From positions 1-45,689 of the IMG/VR virus record IMGVR_UViG_3300032304_001937: DNA of 45,689 bases; one strand, written 5' to 3'. Origin of the DNA: a virus. How positions within the stretch are numbered: position 1 is the first letter of the stretch; each line of letters opens with the position of its first letter. Shown in pieces: positions 26,663 to 39,201 of the stretch. The notes beneath the pieces were generated by a model. The model saw only the letters and a list, made by a program, of their open reading frames with translations. It did no database searches and was not told the DNA's origin. The translations under genes were made by a program, and so were the position numbers.

Positions 26663-26670
26663 TATAAATA
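26663..26670 (+). promoter_or_regulatory. Perfect T4 late promoter TATAAATA
   Basis: An exact match to the T4 late consensus, in the gap before the glycosyltransferase gene. Predicted +1 is near 26676, giving a 22-nt leader before the ATG at 26698. It implies late transcription of at least the first sugar-cassette genes. Confidence 0.7.
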
Positions 26671-26697
26671 ATTTTACATTTATATAGGTAGATAGTG

Positions 26698-27651
26698 ATG
26701 CAAAAGAGATCAAAAGCCTTTTTTATCAACGGTGGCGCCGGAAGAGTTGTATGTTCAATACCAGCGTTTGAAAAGTACTATGAGGAATCCGGCGATAAGG
26801 ATTTTATCATCGTTTGCGAAGGCGGCACGGAATTTTTCAAAGGACATCCTTATCTTGATGCCAAAGCATACGATCATTGGCACAAAAATTTGTTTGCAGA
26901 CAAAATCAAACACATGGATGTCGAAACTCCCGAACCTTATAGAGTTTGGGAATATTATAATCAAAAAGCCAGCTTAACTCAAGCCTTTGATATCTGCATA
27001 AACAACAAGGGCGTCAGAGAACTACCTGCTCCAACACTTTCACTATCCAAGGAAGAATTAGCACAGGGGTTTGGATTAGTTGCAGAAATTAAAAACAAAC
27101 TAAAAAAAGACAAAGTGGTGGTGTTCCAGCCGTTTGGTAGAGGGGTAAAAGAAGCTAATGGATTAGTCCTCGACAGCACTGGTAGAAGCATGGACACTGA
27201 AAACGTGATTTCTTTGATAAAAAAATTCCAAGAAAGCGGTTGGGCTGTTATAATGTTCAGTGAACTGAAACCCAACATGAAAGAAGCCAAGCTGAAGGAC
27301 GAAGTAGCACAACCAGAAGGTGCTTCTTTGAGAATTTGGACATCGATAATTAAACATGCTGATCTTTTTATAGGCTGCGATTCTGTAGGACAGCACTTGG
27401 CACATGTCTTAAAAACTCCTGCAGTCGCAGTATTGGGTTCAACTTATCAAATCAATGTATCTTACCCCGAATCAGATATTTTTAAAGTAGTTGATCTAGG
27501 CGATAAATTAAGACAATACTCTCCGATTCGTATAGTAATAGACGAAGCAATTGATAGAACCAATGAAAGTTTAATGTATATGACTAAAGAAATAGAAAAT
27601 TATACTTTGGCTATTTGTAAAAAACTAATCAACCCACAAATTAAAAAATAA
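26698..27651 (+). CDS. Glycosyltransferase family 9-like protein (heptosyltransferase-like)
   Basis: A 317-residue protein starting at ATG 26698 (GTG 26695 is a less likely start). Near residues 220-245 it has HADLFIGCDSVGQHLAHVLK followed by TPAVAVLGST, the GT9 donor-site motif (F.G.DSG..HLA.......V.LFG). The central VVVFQPFGRGVKEAN segment matches the second Rossmann domain. Heptosyltransferases of this family move heptose from ADP-heptose to LPS core. The ADP-heptose pathway genes in the same cassette support that donor here. The acceptor is unknown. Downstream spacing to the carbamoyltransferase is 10 bases. Confidence 0.75.
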   Translation: MQKRSKAFFINGGAGRVVCSIPAFEKYYEESGDKDFIIVCEGGTEFFKGHPYLDAKAYDHWHKNLFADKIKHMDVETPEPYRVWEYYNQKASLTQAFDICINNKGVRELPAPTLSLSKEELAQGFGLVAEIKNKLKKDKVVVFQPFGRGVKEANGLVLDSTGRSMDTENVISLIKKFQESGWAVIMFSELKPNMKEAKLKDEVAQPEGASLRIWTSIIKHADLFIGCDSVGQHLAHVLKTPAVAVLGSTYQINVSYPESDIFKVVDLGDKLRQYSPIRIVIDEAIDRTNESLMYMTKEIENYTLAICKKLINPQIKK

Positions 27652-27661
27652 AGGAAATAAA

Positions 27662-29479
27662 ATGAGTTTATGGATAGCTGGAATAACACGAGGTCACAAC
27701 GCCGGTGTTTGTTTGTTAAAAGACGGAGAAATAGTTTTTTCTATTGAAGAGGAAAGATTGACTAGAGAAAAGTACGACGGTGGACCTCTAGCATCTATGT
27801 TAAAAATAAAAGAATATACCGATAGACTGGATTATCTAGTAGTTGCCCACACCCAACCTTTGCATGAAACAGCCGGTAAAATAGATTTCAGCGGCGAAGA
27901 CATGTACACGGGCCTTGCTAGAAAGTTAGGATTGATCGACAGAGATGCTGACTTTAGCAATCACCCGCAAGTAATTGATCTAAGCCATATTCATCACAAG
28001 CTTCATGCTGCCTGTGCGTTCTATCGCAGCGGATTTGATAAAGCAGTAGCAGTTGTAATTGACGGAGCAGGAACATTTATGCCTGTTATGGTCAACGGCG
28101 GCAGAAATGAAATATTATTCGAACTTGAAAGCATTTTTACCTGTGCATATCCAAACAACATCAAAACCACATACAAGCATCACGGGTGCAGAGGACCATT
28201 AAAAGGACTTATAGTTCCAGAAATGAATTCAGAAAAATATGGAGAAGAAGGTACACATATCTGTGTTATTGATGATTGCGCAGGCATTGTTAAGGCTTAT
28301 GAAGCAGTAACACAATACTGCGGTTGGCCTAGTATTGAAGCAGGAAAAACCATGGGACTGTTTCCATACGGTAAACCCAATGATGCTTTGCCAAAAATAT
28401 ACACAGATGCAGGCGGCGGCAAATGGCGTTCTGCTGATCGAAATGTAATTATTCCCACATATCCAAACGGTGCCGAAGTTAACGAATATAGGTTTAGTGA
28501 ATTAGAAACCAGCGACGAAGTTTATACAAATAGAGAAGATGTAACACTATTGCAAAATAGAAGAGATATGGCTTACGCTATCCAAACCGAAAGTCAACAA
28601 GAAGCACTAAATGTAATTCTCAAAGCAGTAGAACTTACGGGTGTTAAAAATGTTGTGTTTTCAGGTGGCTACGGGTTAAATTGTGTGGCTAACTATTTTT
28701 ACCTCACTAAATTAAACGAAGAAGGCATTAATTTCTATGCTGAACCAATCAGCAACGATGCAGGCACTGCGATTGGCGCAGCATTATTAATCCACTACGG
28801 GTTAACTGAAGACGCCACTGTGAGATCTTACGCAGATTCTTTATACTTAGGACCTAAGTATAACTATTCAAAGAGTGATGTAGAGCAGATTGCAGAAAAA
28901 TATCAAGCTACACGAGTGTTCGAAGTATCTAAGTCTGATGTAGTTAACATGTTAACTGAAAAGAATATTGTTACAATATTCCAAGGACGTTCAGAAAACG
29001 GACCAAGAGCACTAGGTAACAGAAGTATATTGTTTGATCCACGATTCACTGATGGGAAAGATTTTGTTAATGAAATCAAACATCGCGAATATTTCCGGCC
29101 GTTTGCTGGAACAGTATTAATCGAACACGCAGCCGAATGGTTTGATCTACGAGGCATGGAACAAAGTCCTCATATGATGTATGCTGTGAACTGTCAGTCC
29201 GGAGTTGAAGAAAAAATTCCTTCAATTATTCATGTTGACGGTACATGCAGAATTCAAACTCTAAAGAAAGAACAAAACGTTCACTACTATGAGTTAATAG
29301 AAGAGTTTTACAAAGAGACTGGCGTTCCAGTATTGTTCAATACCAGTTTTAATCTAGGCGGAGAAGCACTAGTTGAAACCCTAGATGATGCTGTTAGGAC
29401 TCTTGCTTACAGTAAAATGGAATATCTCTATTTGCCTGAGTTCGAATTAATGATAGAGATGAAAAATAACGAAAGTTAA
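27662..29479 (+). CDS. NodU/CmcH-family O-carbamoyltransferase
   Basis: A 605-residue protein, usual length for the family. It catalyses ATP-dependent transfer of a carbamoyl group from carbamoyl phosphate to a hydroxyl, usually on a sugar. The N-terminal ASKHA/Kae1-like domain begins with GITRGHNAGVCLLKDGEIVF and has the metal-site H109-I-H111-H112-K-L-H115 followed by AVVIDGAG. The C-terminal domain has Q441-GRSENGPRALGNRS and YFRPFAGTVL, both diagnostic. AAAGGAAA precedes the ATG. The context with GT9 and heptose genes suggests carbamoylation of a heptose or other glycan sugar. The stop overlaps by four bases the stop of a convergent SGNH gene. Confidence 0.9.
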   Translation: MSLWIAGITRGHNAGVCLLKDGEIVFSIEEERLTREKYDGGPLASMLKIKEYTDRLDYLVVAHTQPLHETAGKIDFSGEDMYTGLARKLGLIDRDADFSNHPQVIDLSHIHHKLHAACAFYRSGFDKAVAVVIDGAGTFMPVMVNGGRNEILFELESIFTCAYPNNIKTTYKHHGCRGPLKGLIVPEMNSEKYGEEGTHICVIDDCAGIVKAYEAVTQYCGWPSIEAGKTMGLFPYGKPNDALPKIYTDAGGGKWRSADRNVIIPTYPNGAEVNEYRFSELETSDEVYTNREDVTLLQNRRDMAYAIQTESQQEALNVILKAVELTGVKNVVFSGGYGLNCVANYFYLTKLNEEGINFYAEPISNDAGTAIGAALLIHYGLTEDATVRSYADSLYLGPKYNYSKSDVEQIAEKYQATRVFEVSKSDVVNMLTEKNIVTIFQGRSENGPRALGNRSILFDPRFTDGKDFVNEIKHREYFRPFAGTVLIEHAAEWFDLRGMEQSPHMMYAVNCQSGVEEKIPSIIHVDGTCRIQTLKKEQNVHYYELIEEFYKETGVPVLFNTSFNLGGEALVETLDDAVRTLAYSKMEYLYLPEFELMIEMKNNES

Positions 29480-30333
29480 AATAATAATTTAAAAGACTTT
29501 GCACCAAATTTCTGTCTAAGACTATTACTGAGCATTTCATTAAAGTACTTAACACAGAGTTCTTTGGCAGCAAAGTCTTTGTCTTTGTGATTTTTTTCAG
29601 TGATAATTTTTTTGTGAAAAACATCAGATCCTAGACTAATAGGAGTGTCGTTATACAAACTTTCTCCTACTAAGTTTCCTAACACAGCATGATTGCTAAG
29701 GCACATGTGATTATATCTACAATCAACATGGTGCCAGTATTTTGCATCCATTAGTTCATCAGCATATACCTGAGCACCGTCAAATTTTTCAAATTCAGCG
29801 AATTGTATTCTTGACAAACTCTGATTAGAAAAATTTAATTCGGGAAAATCTAATAGATGGTCATCTGCGGTTTCGAATCCTTTGATAATTAAAGGTCTTC
29901 TTAATTTGTTTTTTAGTACATAGTATGATAGGTAACCCAATCTATGATTTTGAAGCTGTGATGCTAATGAAGGTCTCCAGATACGGGTAACAAATGATAA
30001 AATAGTTTTTTGTAATTCTGGGTCATCGGTCATTTGAGTAACATTTTGAATAGACATTACATTGCTCCACTCAGGTCTCTTTTCAAAATACCAAAATCTA
30101 TCAGAGGAAGTTTTTACAATCGATAAAAAATCATCAGGAGTCATTTGCGTTAGTATATTGCTTAATGTTTTCCAAACATAATCTTGACTGGCACCGATTA
30201 AACTATGATTAACAACCTCAACTCTACTACCAATTTTTTTAGATAGGTGTTCGCCTGCAATAACAGGCCAAAGTTTTTTTTCAGTTTTGTGCGGGTAACT
30301 AAAACTGTCACCTAGAATGAATAATTTTGCCAT
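29476..30333 (-). CDS. SGNH-hydrolase-like protein
   Basis: A 285-residue protein with the N-terminal block I MAKLFILGDSFSYP (nucleophile Ser10) and a C-terminal CRYNHMCLSNHAVLG, which resembles the block V histidine region. ATG 30333 is chosen because it places the GDS motif in its normal N-terminal position and follows an AAAGG-type site; an earlier in-frame ATG at 30366 would add an unlikely 11-residue extension. SGNH proteins are esterases or O-acyltransferases and often act on glycans. It is the only minus-strand gene in the cassette and is convergent with the carbamoyltransferase. Confidence 0.7.
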   Translation of the reverse strand: MAKLFILGDSFSYPHKTEKKLWPVIAGEHLSKKIGSRVEVVNHSLIGASQDYVWKTLSNILTQMTPDDFLSIVKTSSDRFWYFEKRPEWSNVMSIQNVTQMTDDPELQKTILSFVTRIWRPSLASQLQNHRLGYLSYYVLKNKLRRPLIIKGFETADDHLLDFPELNFSNQSLSRIQFAEFEKFDGAQVYADELMDAKYWHHVDCRYNHMCLSNHAVLGNLVGESLYNDTPISLGSDVFHKKIITEKNHKDKDFAAKELCVKYFNEMLSNSLRQKFGAKSFKLLF

Positions 30334-30384
30334 GAGTACCTTTACGAGATAAATTATACTATACAATAGTTATCAAAGATTACA

Positions 30385-31594: not shown

Positions 31595-32310
31595 ATATAA
31601 TTGATATAGGTTACACTCATTGGTTTGAGAAAACTGATTATTCTAGCGATACAAATCCTGCACTCAACGACAGTTGGACAGCTTTAGTAAATTATGATTT
31701 AGAAAAATTAGATACATGGAAAACAACTACATCAAATTATACAAAATGCCCAGCATTTGTTAATTACGTAGATCAAATATGGGTGTTAAAATCTGCAATA
31801 GATGTTACAATAACTTGGGATGATGCTAAGAAAAAAATAACAAGTAATTTGTTTCCAGGAGCACACGATATGATAATTAAATCACATGCAGGGGATTTTA
31901 ATCCATATACAAGCCAGCCTATTATAGCAATTAATAACGGCATAGTATTCGTAGCAGACACGGACGTATGGGTAGACTTTCTGCCACCGTTCAATCACAT
32001 CGATCCTACATGGAGGCTGATACCGGGTAGCTTTAATATATATAATTGGCAACGACCCGCAGTACCCACATTTGAAATGTTAGCAAATACGGTAAAAATA
32101 CAAAGGGGGCAACCCCTAGCATATTTTAGATTTAGAAGCAACGATCCACAAGACAAATTTAAGTTGATCAAACAAGAACGAACAGCAGAATTAGAAAAAC
32201 TTGTATTGAGCTGTAGTTCGTTAAAGTTTTTTCAACGCAATCTAAGTTGGAAATTTGTTACAGGTCTAATACCTAATAAACTGAGACCAAAGAAATTAGT
32301 AAAGAAATGA
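31591..32310 (+). CDS. Unknown protein translationally coupled to the oxygenase
   Basis: A 239-residue protein with ATGA overlaps at both ends (31591-31594 and 32307-32310), so it is tightly coupled to the oxygenase upstream and the SGNH-like gene downstream. Features include NLFPGAHDMIIKSHAGDFNP and DPTWRLIPGSFNIYNWQRPA, and a basic C-terminus (NKLRPKKLVKK). I do not recognise the family and see no signal peptide. The tight coupling suggests it acts with the oxygenase, possibly as a partner or on the same substrate. Confidence 0.7.
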   Translation: MNIIDIGYTHWFEKTDYSSDTNPALNDSWTALVNYDLEKLDTWKTTTSNYTKCPAFVNYVDQIWVLKSAIDVTITWDDAKKKITSNLFPGAHDMIIKSHAGDFNPYTSQPIIAINNGIVFVADTDVWVDFLPPFNHIDPTWRLIPGSFNIYNWQRPAVPTFEMLANTVKIQRGQPLAYFRFRSNDPQDKFKLIKQERTAELEKLVLSCSSLKFFQRNLSWKFVTGLIPNKLRPKKLVKK

Positions 32311-33002
32311 AAATAGGATTGTTTGGAGATAGCTATGCATGCCTAACCTTAGATAAGGGAGAGGCTTGGTTTGAGTCTAGAGAAATATTAGATTCATATA
32401 CAATTGAATCCTATGCTAAAAAAGGATCAGACATAACATGGTCCTATAACTCGTTTTTAAAAAATCACAGCAAGTATAAAAAAAATATTTTTCTAGTAAC
32501 AGAGTCAACAAGACATTCTTTTGTAGTAGGATCACACACACTGCATGTTTCAAACATTGATACTATCGATCATATTAGTGAACAGATAAAAGATTTAAAA
32601 ATTAAAAGTATTTTACAGTCATTAAAGACACACTATTTGTATTCGTTGCCTTTAGAGGTGTATGACTTTGGCCTTGCTGGCATGGTTGAAAGAATCAAAG
32701 AAATCCGACCTGACACTATTATAGTGTATGGATTTTACAATCACTCAATTGAAAAAATCACGCAGAGTAATTTTTATCTGTCCCAGGTAAGTATGATGGA
32801 ATTAAAGCAGTTCGGAATTAACTTTGAACAAATGAAAAAATTAGGGACAGGCGAAGGAAGGTCAGCGCACATGACAAAAGAAAACAATATAATTTTTGCA
32901 AAATATATAAAAGATAAATTAGATGGAAACGATGTTGGTATTAGTTTAGATAACTTTGTTATACCACACAAAGCCGATGTTAAAATATATTTTCCGGAAT
33001 AA
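32307..33002 (+). CDS. Second SGNH-hydrolase-like protein
   Basis: A 231-residue protein starting MKIGLFGDSYA, with GDS nucleophile Ser9 in block I. A late GRSAHMTKENNIIFAKYI segment places H188 like the block V histidine, followed by the usual C-terminal helix. It is shorter than, and by eye only distantly related to, the SGNH protein on the other strand. A glycan or lipid esterase or acyltransferase role is possible. It overlaps the upstream gene by four bases, and the phosphatase gene follows four bases later. Confidence 0.65.
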   Translation: MKIGLFGDSYACLTLDKGEAWFESREILDSYTIESYAKKGSDITWSYNSFLKNHSKYKKNIFLVTESTRHSFVVGSHTLHVSNIDTIDHISEQIKDLKIKSILQSLKTHYLYSLPLEVYDFGLAGMVERIKEIRPDTIIVYGFYNHSIEKITQSNFYLSQVSMMELKQFGINFEQMKKLGTGEGRSAHMTKENNIIFAKYIKDKLDGNDVGISLDNFVIPHKADVKIYFPE

Positions 33003-33006
33003 TAAC

Positions 33007-33573
33007 ATGAACTTAAAAAGAACAATTGGATTAGATAGAGACGGTACTATTAACAGAGATATAGGAACTTATGTAACTAAACCTTCAGAATTTCAACCTA
33101 TAGCAGGAAGCTTAGAAGCTGTTGCCATGATGCGAGATAAAGGATATAACATTGTTATAATTACAAATCAAGCCGGAATTACCAAAGGAATTATGACTTC
33201 CGAGGATGTCGAACAAGTACACTTACATATGCTAGAATTATTAGGGCAAGCAGGATGTAAATCAATTGATGGGATTTATTACAGTACTACAAATTTAAAA
33301 GAAGATGTGTATGCTAAGCCAAATGTGGGGATGTTTAAAAAAGCAGAAAACGATCTACGGCTTAAATTCAAAGGCGGATACTATGTCGGGGATAAAATTA
33401 GTGATTTAAAAGCCGCATATAAAATGCATTCAACTCCTGTTCTCGTTAAAACAGGATATGGAGAAGAAACAATCGATAAACTCAATACCTTTGCTAACCG
33501 AGATTTAAAGTGTAAAACTCAGGTATTTAATAATTTGTGGGACTTTGCAGACTCGTTGCCTTGGATAAAATAA
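33007..33573 (+). CDS. GmhB-like HAD phosphatase (D-glycero-beta-D-manno-heptose 1,7-bisphosphate 7-phosphatase type)
   Basis: A 188-residue HAD-family protein. Motif I is L9-D10-R-D12-G-T14, followed by INRDIGTYVTKPSEFQPI and the ITNQAGITKGIMTSEDV signature of histidinol-phosphatase/GmhB enzymes. A late YYVGDKISDLKAA gives motif IV. The usual zinc-binding Cys/His loop of GmhB before the KP.PGM element is missing: the sequence reads YYSTTNLKEDVYAKPNVGM. In the heptose pathway this enzyme removes the 7-phosphate from heptose bisphosphate. Histidinol phosphatase is the main alternative, but the neighbours favour heptose. ATG 33007 is used; the longer upstream start would overlap the previous gene. 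Confidence 0.75.
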   Translation: MNLKRTIGLDRDGTINRDIGTYVTKPSEFQPIAGSLEAVAMMRDKGYNIVIITNQAGITKGIMTSEDVEQVHLHMLELLGQAGCKSIDGIYYSTTNLKEDVYAKPNVGMFKKAENDLRLKFKGGYYVGDKISDLKAAYKMHSTPVLVKTGYGEETIDKLNTFANRDLKCKTQVFNNLWDFADSLPWIK

Positions 33574-33582
33574 TTGACATTA

Positions 33583-33610
33583 TTAACATAGTATGTTAGC
33601 ATTATATAAT
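33583..33610 (+). promoter_or_regulatory. Sigma70-like promoter upstream of the cupin-HldE-HldD genes
   Basis: TTAACA (33583-33588), 16-base spacer, TATAAT (33605-33610), ending 16 bases before the ATG at 33627. A TTGACA at 33574 is too far from the -10 (25 bases) to be its partner. Unlike the TAAATA boxes, this looks readable by host RNA polymerase. Confidence 0.55.
33584..33598. promoter_or_regulatory. Operator-like palindrome inside the promoter
   Basis: TAACATA-G-TATGTTA is a perfect 15-bp inverted repeat that overlaps the -35 element and fills much of the promoter spacer. It could bind a dimeric repressor. As RNA from upstream transcription it could also form a weak hairpin. Confidence 0.4.
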
Positions 33611-33626
33611 AGGTTAGGATATGTAA

Positions 33627-33989
33627 ATGAAATTATTTGGTAAGATAGAAAAAGGTTGGGGACATGAAATAATATTTTCTTCAACTGACCAATATTGTGG
33701 AAAGTATCTAGTGTTTGCCAAAGCCGGCGACAAGTTCAGCATGCACTATCATCTTGTCAAAGATGAAAGCTGGAACGTCAATCGGGGTCTTTTTTTGTTA
33801 AGGTATATTGACACAAAGACTGCAACTATACATGAAAAAATCTTAAACACAGGAGATAATTGGCATAATCCCGCGGGATTGCCACATCAACTTGAGGCAT
33901 TAGAAGACAACTCGATTATAGTTGAAGTAAGTACTCCCGATTCAGTAGAAGATAATTTTAGAATATTTCCCGGAAATAGTCAACAATGA
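33627..33989 (+). CDS. Sugar-type cupin
   Basis: A 120-residue single-domain cupin. The metal-binding residues H40-x-H42 (FSMHYHLVKDESW), E47 and H87 (GLPHQLEALED) are present, and the protein ends with the VEVSTPDSVEDNFRI segment found in sugar isomerase/epimerase-like cupins of LPS loci. The opening KGWGHEIIF resembles the same group. It overlaps the nucleotidyltransferase gene by four bases (ATGA). Its position in a heptose operon suggests a step on a sugar phosphate or nucleotide sugar, but the reaction cannot be told. It probably begins the promoter-driven unit. Confidence 0.75.
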   Translation: MKLFGKIEKGWGHEIIFSSTDQYCGKYLVFAKAGDKFSMHYHLVKDESWNVNRGLFLLRYIDTKTATIHEKILNTGDNWHNPAGLPHQLEALEDNSIIVEVSTPDSVEDNFRIFPGNSQQ

Positions 33990-34387
33990 CTACAATATTA
34001 GTCAATGGTACATTTGATATTCTGCACCCTGGACATGTTGCTATGTTAAACACTGCCCGGAGTATGGGAGATTGTCTTGTTGTATGTATCGACACAGATA
34101 AACGAGTTCGAGAATTAAAAGGTGAAAGCCGTCCGATTAATAATCAGATTGATCGTAAGATAATGCTACAAAATCTAAAAGCAGTAGACATTGTAGAATT
34201 TTTTGACAGCGAAAAAGAACTGATAACATTAATCAAACTGTATAAACCAAGCGTAATGGTCAAAGGCAGTGACTATCGTGGACAACGTATAGTAGGCGAA
34301 GCACACGTACCAAAGGTATTTTATTATGATAGAATCGACGATTACTCAACAACTAAAACAATTCAAGATATTACTAATAGGGGATGA
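33986..34387 (+). CDS. ADP-heptose synthase, nucleotidyltransferase domain as a separate protein (HldE C-domain / RfaE2 type)
   Basis: A 133-residue protein with VNGTFDILHPGH (residues 6-17), the HxGH-type nucleotidyltransferase signature, then VMVKGSDYRGQRIVGE and YSTTKTIQDI, matching the C-terminal domain of HldE. It would transfer AMP to D-beta-heptose 1-phosphate to give ADP-D-glycero-beta-D-manno-heptose. In enterobacterial HldE this domain follows the kinase in one chain. Here it is separate and precedes the kinase gene, which overlaps it by 62 bases in another frame. Confidence 0.85.
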   Translation: MTTILVNGTFDILHPGHVAMLNTARSMGDCLVVCIDTDKRVRELKGESRPINNQIDRKIMLQNLKAVDIVEFFDSEKELITLIKLYKPSVMVKGSDYRGQRIVGEAHVPKVFYYDRIDDYSTTKTIQDITNRG

Positions 34388-35099
34388 CTGCAACGATGTT
34401 TACACATATGGTTATGTGAAACGTATCAGTCCCGAAGCACCAGTTCCTATCTTTGAACCGCACTATAGTGTTCACAAAGATGGTATGGCGGGCAACGTGC
34501 GAAAGAATTTAGAAGCACTGGGATGCGATGTTGATTTTCTAAGAGACAAAGACAGGGTCAGTGAGAAAAACAGACTGATTGACGAACGTACCAAGCAACA
34601 ACTACTACGTGTGGATCGAGATGCTAAATCCGATCCTATCACATTTGAAACAGCAATCCCTGATGTGTATGATGCTATCGTAATCAGTGACTACAACAAA
34701 GGCACCGTGACCTACGAACTCATAGAAGAACTGGTTCGAGAAGCAACTGTGCCTATTTTTGTTGATACAAAGAAAACAGACCTAGCAAGACTCTCAGGAT
34801 GCTATGTCAAGATCAACGCACTGGAAAAAAGTCGTGCAACAAGTTTACCTGACCCGAAACATTTGATTGTGACTCACGGTAGTAATGGTGCAGAATGGAA
34901 TAGTTGGGTCTATGCTGCTGAAATTGTAGGCGATGTAACTGATGTATGCGGAGCAGGAGATACATTTTTAGCAGCTCTTGTGTACGAGTTTTTGCACACA
35001 AACAACATAAGCATGGCAATAACGTTCGCAAATAAAGCGGCTGCGGTGACGGTACAGCGTGTAGGAGTCTATGCTCCTAGACTAGCGGAAATAAAATGA
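34326..35099 (+). CDS. D-beta-heptose 7-phosphate kinase domain (HldE N-domain / RfaE1 type)
   Basis: A 257-residue PfkB-family kinase. Diagnostic segments: ILLIGDDCNDVYTYGYVKRI, SPEAPVPIFEPHYSVHKDGM (HldE-specific SPEAPVP), GNVRKNLEALG, AIVISDYNKGTV, and C208-G-A-G-D212-T with D212 as catalytic base. It phosphorylates D-glycero-D-manno-heptose 7-phosphate at C1. It is shorter than the roughly 318-residue HldE kinase domain, with an apparent contraction after the ALG segment, so it may be a minimal form. ATG 34326 lies inside the nucleotidyltransferase gene, 62 bases before its stop. The stop overlaps the next start (ATGA). Confidence 0.85.
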   Translation: MIESTITQQLKQFKILLIGDDCNDVYTYGYVKRISPEAPVPIFEPHYSVHKDGMAGNVRKNLEALGCDVDFLRDKDRVSEKNRLIDERTKQQLLRVDRDAKSDPITFETAIPDVYDAIVISDYNKGTVTYELIEELVREATVPIFVDTKKTDLARLSGCYVKINALEKSRATSLPDPKHLIVTHGSNGAEWNSWVYAAEIVGDVTDVCGAGDTFLAALVYEFLHTNNISMAITFANKAAAVTVQRVGVYAPRLAEIK

Positions 35100-35968
35100 T
35101 TGCATTAACAGGTGCCGGTGGGTTTATTGGCAGTGTGGTATTGGGCTATCTCAATAGACAAGGCATTACTGATGTCTATTTGTTCGACGATTTACCTGAA
35201 CCTAATCAATTCAAAAATCTCATAGGCAAACGTTATCTAGGATTACATTCTACTAAAGAGATTGTAACAGACATAAAAGACTTTGACTATGTTATACACA
35301 TCGGTGCGAACAGCAATACGCTTGAAAAAGATTGGTCTAGTATCTATGATACCAATGTGTTAAGTACTCGCAGATGGCACGACCTTTGTAGAGAACATGA
35401 TAAAAAATTTATCTTTACTAGTTCAGCGGCAGTGTATGGAAATGGTCAAGGCCCATTAAATCAATATGCATTTAGCAAACTGGCCAGCGAACAAGAAATT
35501 ACCAACGGAGTTATACTTAGGTTGTTCAACGTTTACGGCCCAAATGAGTATCACAAGGGCAGAATGGCTTCTACAATATTGCATTGGTTTGATCAAATTA
35601 AAGAAAATGAGGAAATAAAGATATTCGAAAATAGCAAGAATTATTACAGAGATTTTGTATGGGTTGAAGACATAGCAAAAACTATATATCATTTTATGTT
35701 TGAAAATTATCAACCCGGAATTTATGACCTAGGCAGCGGGTCCAGCATAGATTTTGAAACTGTAGCAGATCTTGTAATAGCTAATACAAATACCGGCAAA
35801 AAAAGATTCGTAGATATGCCCGATGATCTTAAAAAACAGTACCAAATAAATACATTAGCTGATATGCAATGGTTGATAAACGCGGGGGTAGATGTGAAAA
35901 GTTTCACTAAAGTGCATGAAGGCATCGCAACATACATAGATTACTTGGCTAAAACTCGTTATTACTAA
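35096..35968 (+). CDS. hldD: ADP-L-glycero-D-manno-heptose 6-epimerase (HldD)
   Basis: A 290-residue extended SDR epimerase. The NAD(P)-binding TGAGGFIGS is at residues 5-13, SSAAVYG in the catalytic region, and Y124-AFS-K128 is the YxxxK pair. HldD-specific segments include FNVYGPNEYHKGRMAST, RDFVWVEDIA, and a C-terminal KKQYQINTLADMQWL...AGV that parallels E. coli HldD. It converts ADP-D-glycero- to ADP-L-glycero-beta-D-manno-heptose, the LPS-core donor. Length is slightly under the usual 310. It is coupled to the kinase by a four-base overlap and ends the heptose cassette. Confidence 0.9.
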   Translation: MIALTGAGGFIGSVVLGYLNRQGITDVYLFDDLPEPNQFKNLIGKRYLGLHSTKEIVTDIKDFDYVIHIGANSNTLEKDWSSIYDTNVLSTRRWHDLCREHDKKFIFTSSAAVYGNGQGPLNQYAFSKLASEQEITNGVILRLFNVYGPNEYHKGRMASTILHWFDQIKENEEIKIFENSKNYYRDFVWVEDIAKTIYHFMFENYQPGIYDLGSGSSIDFETVADLVIANTNTGKKRFVDMPDDLKKQYQINTLADMQWLINAGVDVKSFTKVHEGIATYIDYLAKTRYY

Positions 35969-37176: not shown

Positions 37177-39201
37177 ATGGAAAAAAAATATTATCAATTG
37201 GCAACTCATACTGAAGCAGAATGGGATGAGCTAAATGCAGAATTAACCCATCTAGGACGAGTCAGTGAATATGTGCCTGACAGAACTGTAGACTGTGTAG
37301 ATGATCAGTTACATAGTCCTATTCGCGGAACGTATCTGCTCACAGATCAAGAAGCAGAACTGTTAAAAACTGATCCAAGAATAAAATTTATCAACATAGA
37401 TTATAAACGCTACGCTGAATTCATACCTCCGCCTGACGAATTGCACTCAGTAAGACCAGATTTAGTAAACAGATATACTTCTGCGGTAAAAAATTACCGA
37501 GAATTTTCTGCTTCCAATACACTGGCAGCAACGCCCGATACCTCAGACGTCAACAGAACCGGATATCAACTTTATAGATGCACACAGAAATTAGATCCTT
37601 GGGTAGATAATTCACTGGCTGACAACGCAGTGGTCGATATCAATATTCCACAATACGGCACAGGCAAGCACGTAGATGTCATAGTTGCAGATGACGGCAC
37701 CTGGATCGGCCATCCAGAATTTCAAAGCAATTCTCTGTCCGATTCTAGTCCCTTCGCCGCTGTGCCAAAACCCAATAGCTATGTTGGTGGCAATGTTCTA
37801 CCAGGCAACGGCACCTGTGATCTGTTAGACCTGGTGCTAGATGCTCCATATTACATTGATCCTGATTGGTTCAATGCTAATCCTGCAACAAGATTAATCA
37901 CTAGATGGGACGGCACCACAGTACCTGTGGAGTCAGTGGCGAGATCATGGTGGGAAAACAACACCTTACGCAGCGCACAGTTTGCGAATGCAGGCACAGT
38001 GAGTGTTGCTGTTACTTATACTAGAGCAAACTGTAATGGCACTAACGCTGCTATATCTCTCGAAGGCGATCACGGAACCTGTTGTGCTGCACTGACCTAT
38101 GGAAGAACACAAGGGTGGGCATATAATGCCAATAAATGGGTGTTGGATCTCTACGGCGGGTTTGGGACAGGCATAGAAGCGGGCTTTGATTTGATGAAAA
38201 TATTTCATACTGTAAAGCCAGTGAATTCTCTGTTTGGCACTAGAAATCCCACAATAACAAGCAATAGCTGGGGATATCGAGCTGATAAAGATCCCGGCGG
38301 AGCAACTTATTATTACACTCATAGATCAACAAGCAATACTGCCTACACCACCGAAGTAGGAATAAATTGGCTAAGCCATATGGGCACACAAGGTGATGGC
38401 GGTCGCTGGAAAAGTGAAATGAAAACAAATTCACTGACCACAGCGCAAGAGGAATTAATTGCTGCCGGAGTAATTTTTGTTGCGGCATCCGGTAACAGCA
38501 ATCAAAAACAGGTAAACAGCAGTCACCCGGATTTCAACAATTTTATTACCACCACCAATGGCGGAAGCCTAGCCAATTCTACATTTACTGAGTTTGGGAT
38601 TTCAGTATTCGGAACAACAAATCGCCGAGGATTTCCTCAACAAGGCGGAAAATACACCGACGTTAATGGCGCAGTGATTTATCCTGTGATCAATATAGGT
38701 GCATTAGACGACGATTATAAAACTTCAAAAGAAGCCAAAGTCGGTTACAGCGATAGAGGAAACAGCATAGATGTTTATGCTCCAGCAGATGGCACCTTGG
38801 CAGCCAATAGAGGCTATGGCACAAACTGGCCGAGACCTGATACCTATGCTGCTCTCAGCTACAATTCCGGAAATACCACCGACGCTGCCTTTAGCGGAAC
38901 CAGTGCTGCCTGTCCTGTAGCCACAGGATTTATAGCTACAGTATTGGAGTGGAATAGAGATTGGACCTGGACGGAAGTAAAAGCATGGCTGCAATCTCTA
39001 GAAACACAGGACGCTGCCGATTTTTACTTTGGCACAGAATCAACTACCACAAACACGGCAAATTGGTTGGATTATGAAAGTCTTGAAGGGGGCGATGCTC
39101 GTGTGCTTTATCAAGGACCGTTTGATGCACGATTTAGGACCGGAGTACGAAAAATAATGTCAAGACTGCAGATTACTAACGGTTTTAGATTACGTAAGTA
39201 A
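37177..39201 (+). CDS. Subtilisin-like serine protease (S8 family), virion-associated
   Basis: A 674-residue protein with a complete S8 set: Asp172 in VDVIVADDGTW, His299 in EGDHGTCCAA, oxyanion Asn440 in VAASGNSN, and Ser576 in SGTSAACPVATGF. An N-terminal region of about 100 residues (KYYQLATHTEAEWDEL..., IKFINIDYKR) resembles a subtilisin propeptide or inhibitor-like domain, but there is no signal peptide. An insertion of about 120 residues separates the Asp and His motifs. It begins three bases after a fibre gene and is followed by another. It could process fibre proteins during assembly or degrade host surface protein; the sequence does not decide. Confidence 0.85.
   Translation: MEKKYYQLATHTEAEWDELNAELTHLGRVSEYVPDRTVDCVDDQLHSPIRGTYLLTDQEAELLKTDPRIKFINIDYKRYAEFIPPPDELHSVRPDLVNRYTSAVKNYREFSASNTLAATPDTSDVNRTGYQLYRCTQKLDPWVDNSLADNAVVDINIPQYGTGKHVDVIVADDGTWIGHPEFQSNSLSDSSPFAAVPKPNSYVGGNVLPGNGTCDLLDLVLDAPYYIDPDWFNANPATRLITRWDGTTVPVESVARSWWENNTLRSAQFANAGTVSVAVTYTRANCNGTNAAISLEGDHGTCCAALTYGRTQGWAYNANKWVLDLYGGFGTGIEAGFDLMKIFHTVKPVNSLFGTRNPTITSNSWGYRADKDPGGATYYYTHRSTSNTAYTTEVGINWLSHMGTQGDGGRWKSEMKTNSLTTAQEELIAAGVIFVAASGNSNQKQVNSSHPDFNNFITTTNGGSLANSTFTEFGISVFGTTNRRGFPQQGGKYTDVNGAVIYPVINIGALDDDYKTSKEAKVGYSDRGNSIDVYAPADGTLAANRGYGTNWPRPDTYAALSYNSGNTTDAAFSGTSAACPVATGFIATVLEWNRDWTWTEVKAWLQSLETQDAADFYFGTESTTTNTANWLDYESLEGGDARVLYQGPFDARFRTGVRKIMSRLQITNGFRLRK

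Follow-up and report, generated by a model that had tools for sequence, protein, structure and literature searches.

A heptose-synthesis gene block in a T4-like phage contig and a cupin that may replace GmhA

The gene block and its four homology-named enzymes

The sequence examined here is a whole 45.7-kb virus contig (IMG/VR record IMGVR_UViG_3300032304_001937, 45,689 nucleotides; hereafter "the window"), a contig of a T4-like phage that encodes a major head protein of the T4-like kind and has tail sheath genes. We analysed a block of five plus-strand genes in its structural arm, at 33007–35968, that is predicted to make an activated heptose, and in particular its cupin gene, the product of which we propose to replace the sedoheptulose-7-phosphate isomerase GmhA. 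The genes encode, in order, a GmhB-like HAD-IIIA phosphatase (heptose-1,7-bisphosphate 7-phosphatase; 33007–33573, 188 aa), the metal cupin (33627–33989, 120 aa), an HldE C-domain-like heptose-1-phosphate nucleotidyltransferase (33986–34387, 133 aa), a shortened HldE N-domain-like heptose-7-phosphate 1-kinase (34326–35099, 257 aa), and an HldD-like ADP-heptose 6-epimerase (35096–35968, 290 aa). The initial annotation had listed the phosphatase, transferase, kinase, and epimerase, correctly for those four, but had passed over the cupin. It had also described the genes as joined by ATGA couplings, which applies to two junctions (cupin/nucleotidyltransferase and kinase/HldD); the nucleotidyltransferase and kinase genes, in contrast, overlap by 62 bases, and a 53-base gap separates the GmhB-like gene from the next gene.

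Family searches and structure searches agree on the four enzymes named by homology. For each of them the heptose family is the top NCBIfam match, yet the score lies below the strict equivalog cut-off set by NCBI, marking all four as divergent family members. The GmhB-like protein matches NF006506 (E 4.7e-41, 140 bits), and its nearest solved structure is a D,D-heptose-1,7-bisphosphate phosphatase (PDB 4pnh, E 5.5e-20). The transferase matches TIGR02199 (E 1.3e-36, 125.6 bits vs. a cut-off of 181.5) and phrog_7878 (E 2e-44), its nearest solved structures being of the cytidylyltransferase type. The kinase matches TIGR02198 (E 5.4e-38, 131 bits vs. a cut-off of 345) and phrog_8133 (E 2.8e-88), with a heptose-7-phosphate kinase as best solved relative (PDB 4e84, E 6.5e-17), and the HldD-like protein matches TIGR02197 (E 3.8e-70, 236.5 bits vs. 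a cut-off of 274.6), with HldD itself as best solved relative (PDB 1eq2, E 3.2e-45). Active-site comparison with the E. coli MG1655 enzymes shows that the kinase keeps GDxxxD, PEAPVP, and GAGDT while being about 60 residues shorter than HldE-N, mainly in two stretches; that the transferase retains GTFDILHPGH, in which HPGH is the HxGH motif; that the HldD-like protein retains SSA, YAFSK (YxxxK), and HKGRMAS (HKG); and that the GmhB-like protein retains DRDGT (the DxD motif). The zinc-binding Cys/His loop of GmhB is shortened, and its cysteines are absent, in the window protein and in the proteins of two related loci (L080 and L001). Domain searches did not place the genes in other pathways, such as that of histidinol phosphatase. 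We conclude that, as judged by homology, all four assignments are confirmed.

In the window transferase a Tyr, not an Arg, immediately precedes STT. According to the STTR5 rule, which is not strict, the residue missing here is tied to use of CTP or UTP (PMC11461863), and the Tyr thus leads us to expect an ADP-sugar as the predicted product. The set as a whole resembles the E. coli pathway GmhA-HldE-GmhB-HldD in having homologous kinase, phosphatase, transferase, and epimerase, and differs from it in that kinase and transferase are separate genes, the kinase is shortened, GmhB lacks the zinc cysteines, and a cupin is proposed to stand in for GmhA.

GmhA and the cupin in phage loci

The initial annotation had regarded the pathway as nearly complete, lacking only GmhA, which the host would have to supply. 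The absence by homology holds: the SIS domain of GmhA (PF13580) has no match anywhere in the 45.7-kb record, and SIS_2-type GmhA was found in none of 51 related phage records, six of which are complete genomes of 190–252 kb. In contrast, the cupin is present in all 54 of the viral kinase loci that have at least 3 kb of flank on either side of the kinase, 52 of which also have the transferase and 42 HldD, leaving 12 loci in which the cupin has no HldD in its vicinity. Among the records of the phage collection, those of cyanophages or marine viruses that have the kinase are all in the cupin list too, and none of the GmhA-bearing records is in that list. The view that the isomerase comes from the host is thus probably wrong, the cupin next door being the likely isomerase.

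The phosphatase is the variable component. A recognised phosphatase occurs in 16 of the 54 viral loci, eight with GmhB and eight with a small HAD protein of the T4-GC 306 type, never together; over all loci compared, GmhB is found in the window and in ten others. Physiology would lead one to expect a dispensable phosphatase, as E. coli without gmhB is approximately wild type, other phosphatases substituting, while loss of gmhA, hldE, or rfaD is harmful (PMC9454879). T4-GC 306, a protein of about 110 aa labelled "phosphoheptose isomerase" in cyanophages, was considered as a GmhA and ruled out: its invariant residues, including DxD, T, K, and D, are the HAD phosphatase set, it has no SIS match, and it fills the phosphatase role. 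The T4-GC 306 genes at L081:10725-11069, L082:10749-11072, L083:11706-12041, and L084:12284-12622, which encode small HAD phosphatases as judged by the invariant residues, carry this label wrongly, and it hides the absence of GmhA.

The finding is less new than the initial annotation took it to be, since records of cyanophages such as P-SSM2 carry the block, which has been published under the name "LPS genes" (T4-GC 303-308; PMC3037559). In P-SSM2, S-CAM1, S-SSM7, and Sf-FS3 a carbamoyltransferase, the transferase, the kinase, the small "phosphoheptose isomerase", a "cysteine dioxygenase", and the epimerase are grouped, and S-SM2 and P-TIM68 have most of the block genes in other orders. Four of these families (T4-GCs 304, 305, 307, and 308) are among seven lipopolysaccharide (LPS) genes reported to co-occur in three phages and to be perhaps functionally linked (Sullivan et al. 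2010, PMC3037559). The window resembles this T4-like cyanophage LPS cluster (T4-GC 302-308, PMC3037559) in having GT9-like, NodU carbamoyltransferase, transferase, kinase, cupin, and epimerase genes, with 35–47% identity to P-SSM2; it differs in gene order, in having a GmhB-type phosphatase where the cluster has the small HAD, and in that its relatives are mostly phages without psbA. Restriction of the module to cyanophages was ruled out, with Photo_RC (psbA/psbD) in 0 of 45 metagenomic records, most of which are fragments. Transketolase/E1-like genes lie close to the heptose kinase in P-TIM68 and S-SM2 (L084:8859-10004; L086:7978-9186), making a phage-made sugar precursor conceivable. Accounts of Tang et al. 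2024 given in PMC11461863 and PMC11573728 describe viral nucleoside diphosphate (NDP)-heptose enzymes (kinase and transferase) as active in vitro and the phosphatase as absent in viruses. The window likewise encodes a predicted heptose kinase and transferase; in contrast to that survey as there summarised, GmhB is present, and SIS-type GmhA is absent with a cupin in its stead.

In the cupin, residues K9-G10-W11-G12, E14, Y23, K26, S38, H40, H42, K45, E47, H87, E100, S102, T103, D109, and R112 are invariant in 47 relatives, and they include the hallmark set of type II phosphomannose isomerase (PMI), namely metal ligands (H40, H42, E47, and H87) together with Tyr/Lys (Y23 and K26), Glu (E100), and a C-terminal Arg (R112). 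Alignment with the PMI domain of E. coli ManC shows WG, D-x-Y-x-x-K, S, the metal-ligand region, E-x-W, H, E, and EDxxR in common. Type II PMI (the ManC/AlgA C-domain) and D-lyxose isomerase, both of which catalyse ketose-aldose isomerisation, share with the window protein a metal cupin with D-x-Y-x-x-K, the metal-ligand region, E, and H, and of the two only PMI shares the EDxxR pattern; the window protein differs in being a single small domain and in its heptose operon context. The DRYCSK stretch is also in the D-lyxose ketol-isomerase of B. subtilis. At E <= 0.1, PF01050 (MannoseP_isomer) weakly matches 41 of the 47 relatives and PF07385 (D-lyxose isomerase) weakly matches 40. An AlphaFold model (predicted local distance difference test, pLDDT, 90) has many cupin matches, with D-lyxose isomerases within the top ten, and its fold is unrelated to that of SIS-fold GmhA. 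Sequence and predicted fold thus fit a ketose-aldose isomerase, short of proof. The PHROG label of the gene, cysteine dioxygenase, was rejected: it has no Pfam or NCBIfam support, and the fold matches include a putative enzyme of that name no higher than rank 44. In the literature searched we found no mention of a cupin heptose isomerase. At L119:7806-9442 and similar Deltaproteobacteria and Binatota loci, a cupin relative lies directly 5' of a gene for a GDP-mannose 4,6-dehydratase-like protein (by eye), an arrangement that fits a phosphomannose-isomerase role at those loci.

Three phages, Bellamy, SynMITS9220M01, and AG-345-E15, have the gene order HddA-cupin-HddC and no PfkB-type kinase. 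In Bellamy the HddA model picks out the kinase (E 7e-83) and the HddC model the transferase (E 4e-17), both under the equivalog cut-offs. Kinases and transferases of the ADP-beta heptose route are unrelated to those of the GDP-alpha route, and only the isomerase and the phosphatase are common to the two. Since the cupin travels with both routes, and the phosphatase has a HAD gene of its own, the cupin is best read as the isomerase.

Cupin and GmhA in cellular genomes

When GTDB genomes were searched with an alignment of the cupin family, cupin operons were identified in Woesearchaeota, Nanoarchaeota, and Patescibacteria. The fullest of them run cupin-HldD-kinase-GmhB-transferase; the kinases are full-length and the GmhB is of the zinc type. 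For a sample led by the kinase, 279 genomes of the phylum concerned were drawn, 67 of which had the kinase, and 60 loci were fetched; domains were assigned with hidden Markov models built from length-limited seeds and with domain-level matches, since fusion proteins confound whole-protein hits. The 60 kinase-drawn loci comprise 30 with GmhA, 13 with the cupin, 17 with neither, and none with both (Fisher p 4.6e-5, kinship ignored). Over all 72 DPANN and Patescibacteria kinase loci, in which two of the cupin loci come from genomes represented twice (L164/L180 and L156/L184), the counts are 30, 25, 17, and 0.

The two proteins also occupy equivalent places. The same first operon slot is held by either one (e.g., L190 vs. 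L194; L181 vs. L167/L180), and C-terminal fusions to the kinase exist for both, with three kinase-GmhA and six kinase-cupin proteins. The kinase tree has 12 label changes, and its supported branches force at least five changes of the cupin label. A whole-genome search with SIS_2 showed that 19 of 23 genomes with a cupin operon have no GmhA-sized SIS protein, having only GlmS-sized (about 600 aa) or 320–350 aa SIS proteins, or none; in the other four, GmhA is encoded next or close to a GHMP kinase resembling HddA, so that it belongs to a second, GDP-type heptose locus.

Two further arrangements are recorded here as observations. At L165:8339-9250, in a cupin-heptose operon of an archaeon, the usual place of HldD is taken by a gene for a protein resembling deoxyhypusine synthase (weak PF01916 match). 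In a bacterial cluster, L136:9736-10515 encodes a small HAD phosphatase of the T4-GC 306 type fused to a domain resembling a nucleotidyltransferase; its neighbours are genes for an HddA-like kinase and a GmhA-like protein.

Proposed pathway, rival readings, and use of the sugar

Context, mutual exclusivity with GmhA, fusions, and residue pattern indicate that the cupin is probably the isomerase. According to the hypothesis that we favour, to which we assign a probability of about 0.75, a hitherto unrecognised cupin-superfamily sedoheptulose-7-phosphate isomerase unrelated to GmhA catalyses the first step towards NDP-heptose in many tailed phages, DPANN archaea, and Patescibacteria, is exchanged with GmhA at one operon position, serves both ADP and GDP routes, and makes the phage modules self-sufficient from a pentose-phosphate-pathway intermediate. 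For the window, the block would then likely be a complete route from host sedoheptulose-7-phosphate to NDP-heptose, with ADP-L-glycero-D-manno-heptose as the most likely product. The metal cupin would isomerise sedoheptulose-7-phosphate to D-glycero-D-manno-heptose-7-phosphate by phosphomannose-isomerase-like ketose-aldose chemistry, replacing GmhA; the shortened HldE-N-like kinase would yield the 1,7-bisphosphate; the GmhB-like phosphatase would remove the 7-phosphate; the HldE-C-like transferase would form NDP-heptose; and the HldD-like enzyme would invert C-6. The last four of these steps are predicted from homology and kept catalytic motifs.

Several observations weigh against this hypothesis. 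The window cupin does not reach the curated PF01050 cut-off (13.7 vs. 23.6 bits). In the fold search quercetinase and oxalate decarboxylase stand level with D-lyxose isomerase, and such a search by itself does not separate isomerases from other cupins. Certain family members are solitary or adjoin GDP-mannose genes, so the family is not heptose-only. In the L136 cluster the cupin occurs together with the GmhA-like gene, the latter beside the HddA-like kinase. The phylogenetically independent pairs, in which GmhA was opposite to the cupin or unchanged, number five, too few for significance (p 0.125), and the cellular genomes are mostly metagenome-assembled genomes of unknown completeness.

Two other explanations can be set against the same evidence. 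The phage could have no isomerase and draw heptose-7-phosphate from host GmhA, the cupin being otherwise employed, for example in modifying or epimerising NDP-heptose. Cupins do include nucleotide-sugar enzymes of the RmlC and CapF types, CapF is among the fold matches, and WbuC-family cupins, whose role is unassigned, match 46 of the 47 relatives. Nevertheless, the cupin is retained in the 12 viral loci without HldD, accompanies PfkB-type and GHMP-type kinase routes alike, and never occurs together with GmhA in archaeal ADP-route loci, and the 19 cupin genomes without any GmhA are cells that could not themselves supply the isomerase; we therefore regard host supply as unlikely. Less likely still is that the block makes another activated sugar, with cupin, kinase, and transferase acting on, for example, mannose-6-phosphate or a longer sugar. 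Kinase, transferase, phosphatase, and epimerase all score well under equivalog cut-offs, relatives of the cupin adjoin GDP-mannose dehydratase genes, and transketolase-like genes (P-TIM68 and S-SM2) and an aldolase gene (S-SM2) lie near, as such a reading would allow. Against it, HldD acts at heptose C-6 and the window HldD keeps the motifs and has HldD as its best match, and the heptose kinases that accompany the same cupin belong to two families, HldE-N and HddA, that are not related.

A GT9-type enzyme might then attach the sugar to the virion or to a surface glycan, which is a guess. The GT9 enzyme invoked in the initial annotation (phrog_8954) is encoded at 26695–27651 (+), 5.4 kb upstream of the block. 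Its Pfam GT9 match is weak (E 5.5e-6), and searching PDB sequences with a profile gave no heptosyltransferase; its modelled fold, in contrast, is closest to heptosyltransferases, the top matches being GT9, WaaF, TibC, and WaaC (middling model, pLDDT 69; template-modelling score 0.4–0.57). A GT9 gene is within the fetched flank of only 9 of the 54 viral loci. The adjoining gene, 27662–29479 (+), encodes a NodU/Nol-like carbamoyltransferase (PF16861 E 2e-57; phrog_1601 E 1.7e-161), and the GT9-like/NodU pair recurs in cyanophages and viral contigs. The LPS of marine Synechococcus WH8102 and CC9311 is without heptose (PMC4515613), which argues against repair of the normal host core; for this reason, and because most related loci have no GT9 gene in the flank, host LPS remodelling suits cyanophages poorly. 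TibC-type enzymes glycosylate beta-helical proteins (PMC4358343), and this, with the position in the structural arm, makes virion glycosylation our preferred guess, held at about even odds, with surface remodelling as the alternative.

Other features near the block were recorded in passing. A scan for T4 late promoters gave one exact match to TATAAATA, at 26663, which is not above chance expectation. By eye, genes at 29476–30366 (−) and 32307–33002 (+) encode GDS-hydrolase-like N-terminal motifs (LGDSFS and FGDSYA, respectively), the former with relatives, on the opposite strand, in ten other module loci. An unusual virion-arm neighbour at 37177–39201 (+), in the structural region, encodes a 674-aa protein with the look of a subtilisin-type protease (GTSAACP motif by eye).

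The type of module is already known in phages; should a cupin be shown to replace GmhA, the first heptose step would gain a new enzyme family. PMC5387315 and PMC11056994 describe GmhA as the enzyme that opens heptose synthesis and as a drug target. A second, unrelated family for the GmhA step would, if true, alter the set of genomes counted as able to make heptose. At present many phages and tiny archaea look "incomplete" in this respect, and database labels obscure the point, with "phosphoheptose isomerase" on a HAD phosphatase and "cysteine dioxygenase" on the cupin. The 2010 remark on functional linkage of the cyanophage genes (PMC3037559) would then be tied to a concrete pathway, and the question of why lytic phages and DPANN archaea make an activated heptose would become testable by simple experiments.

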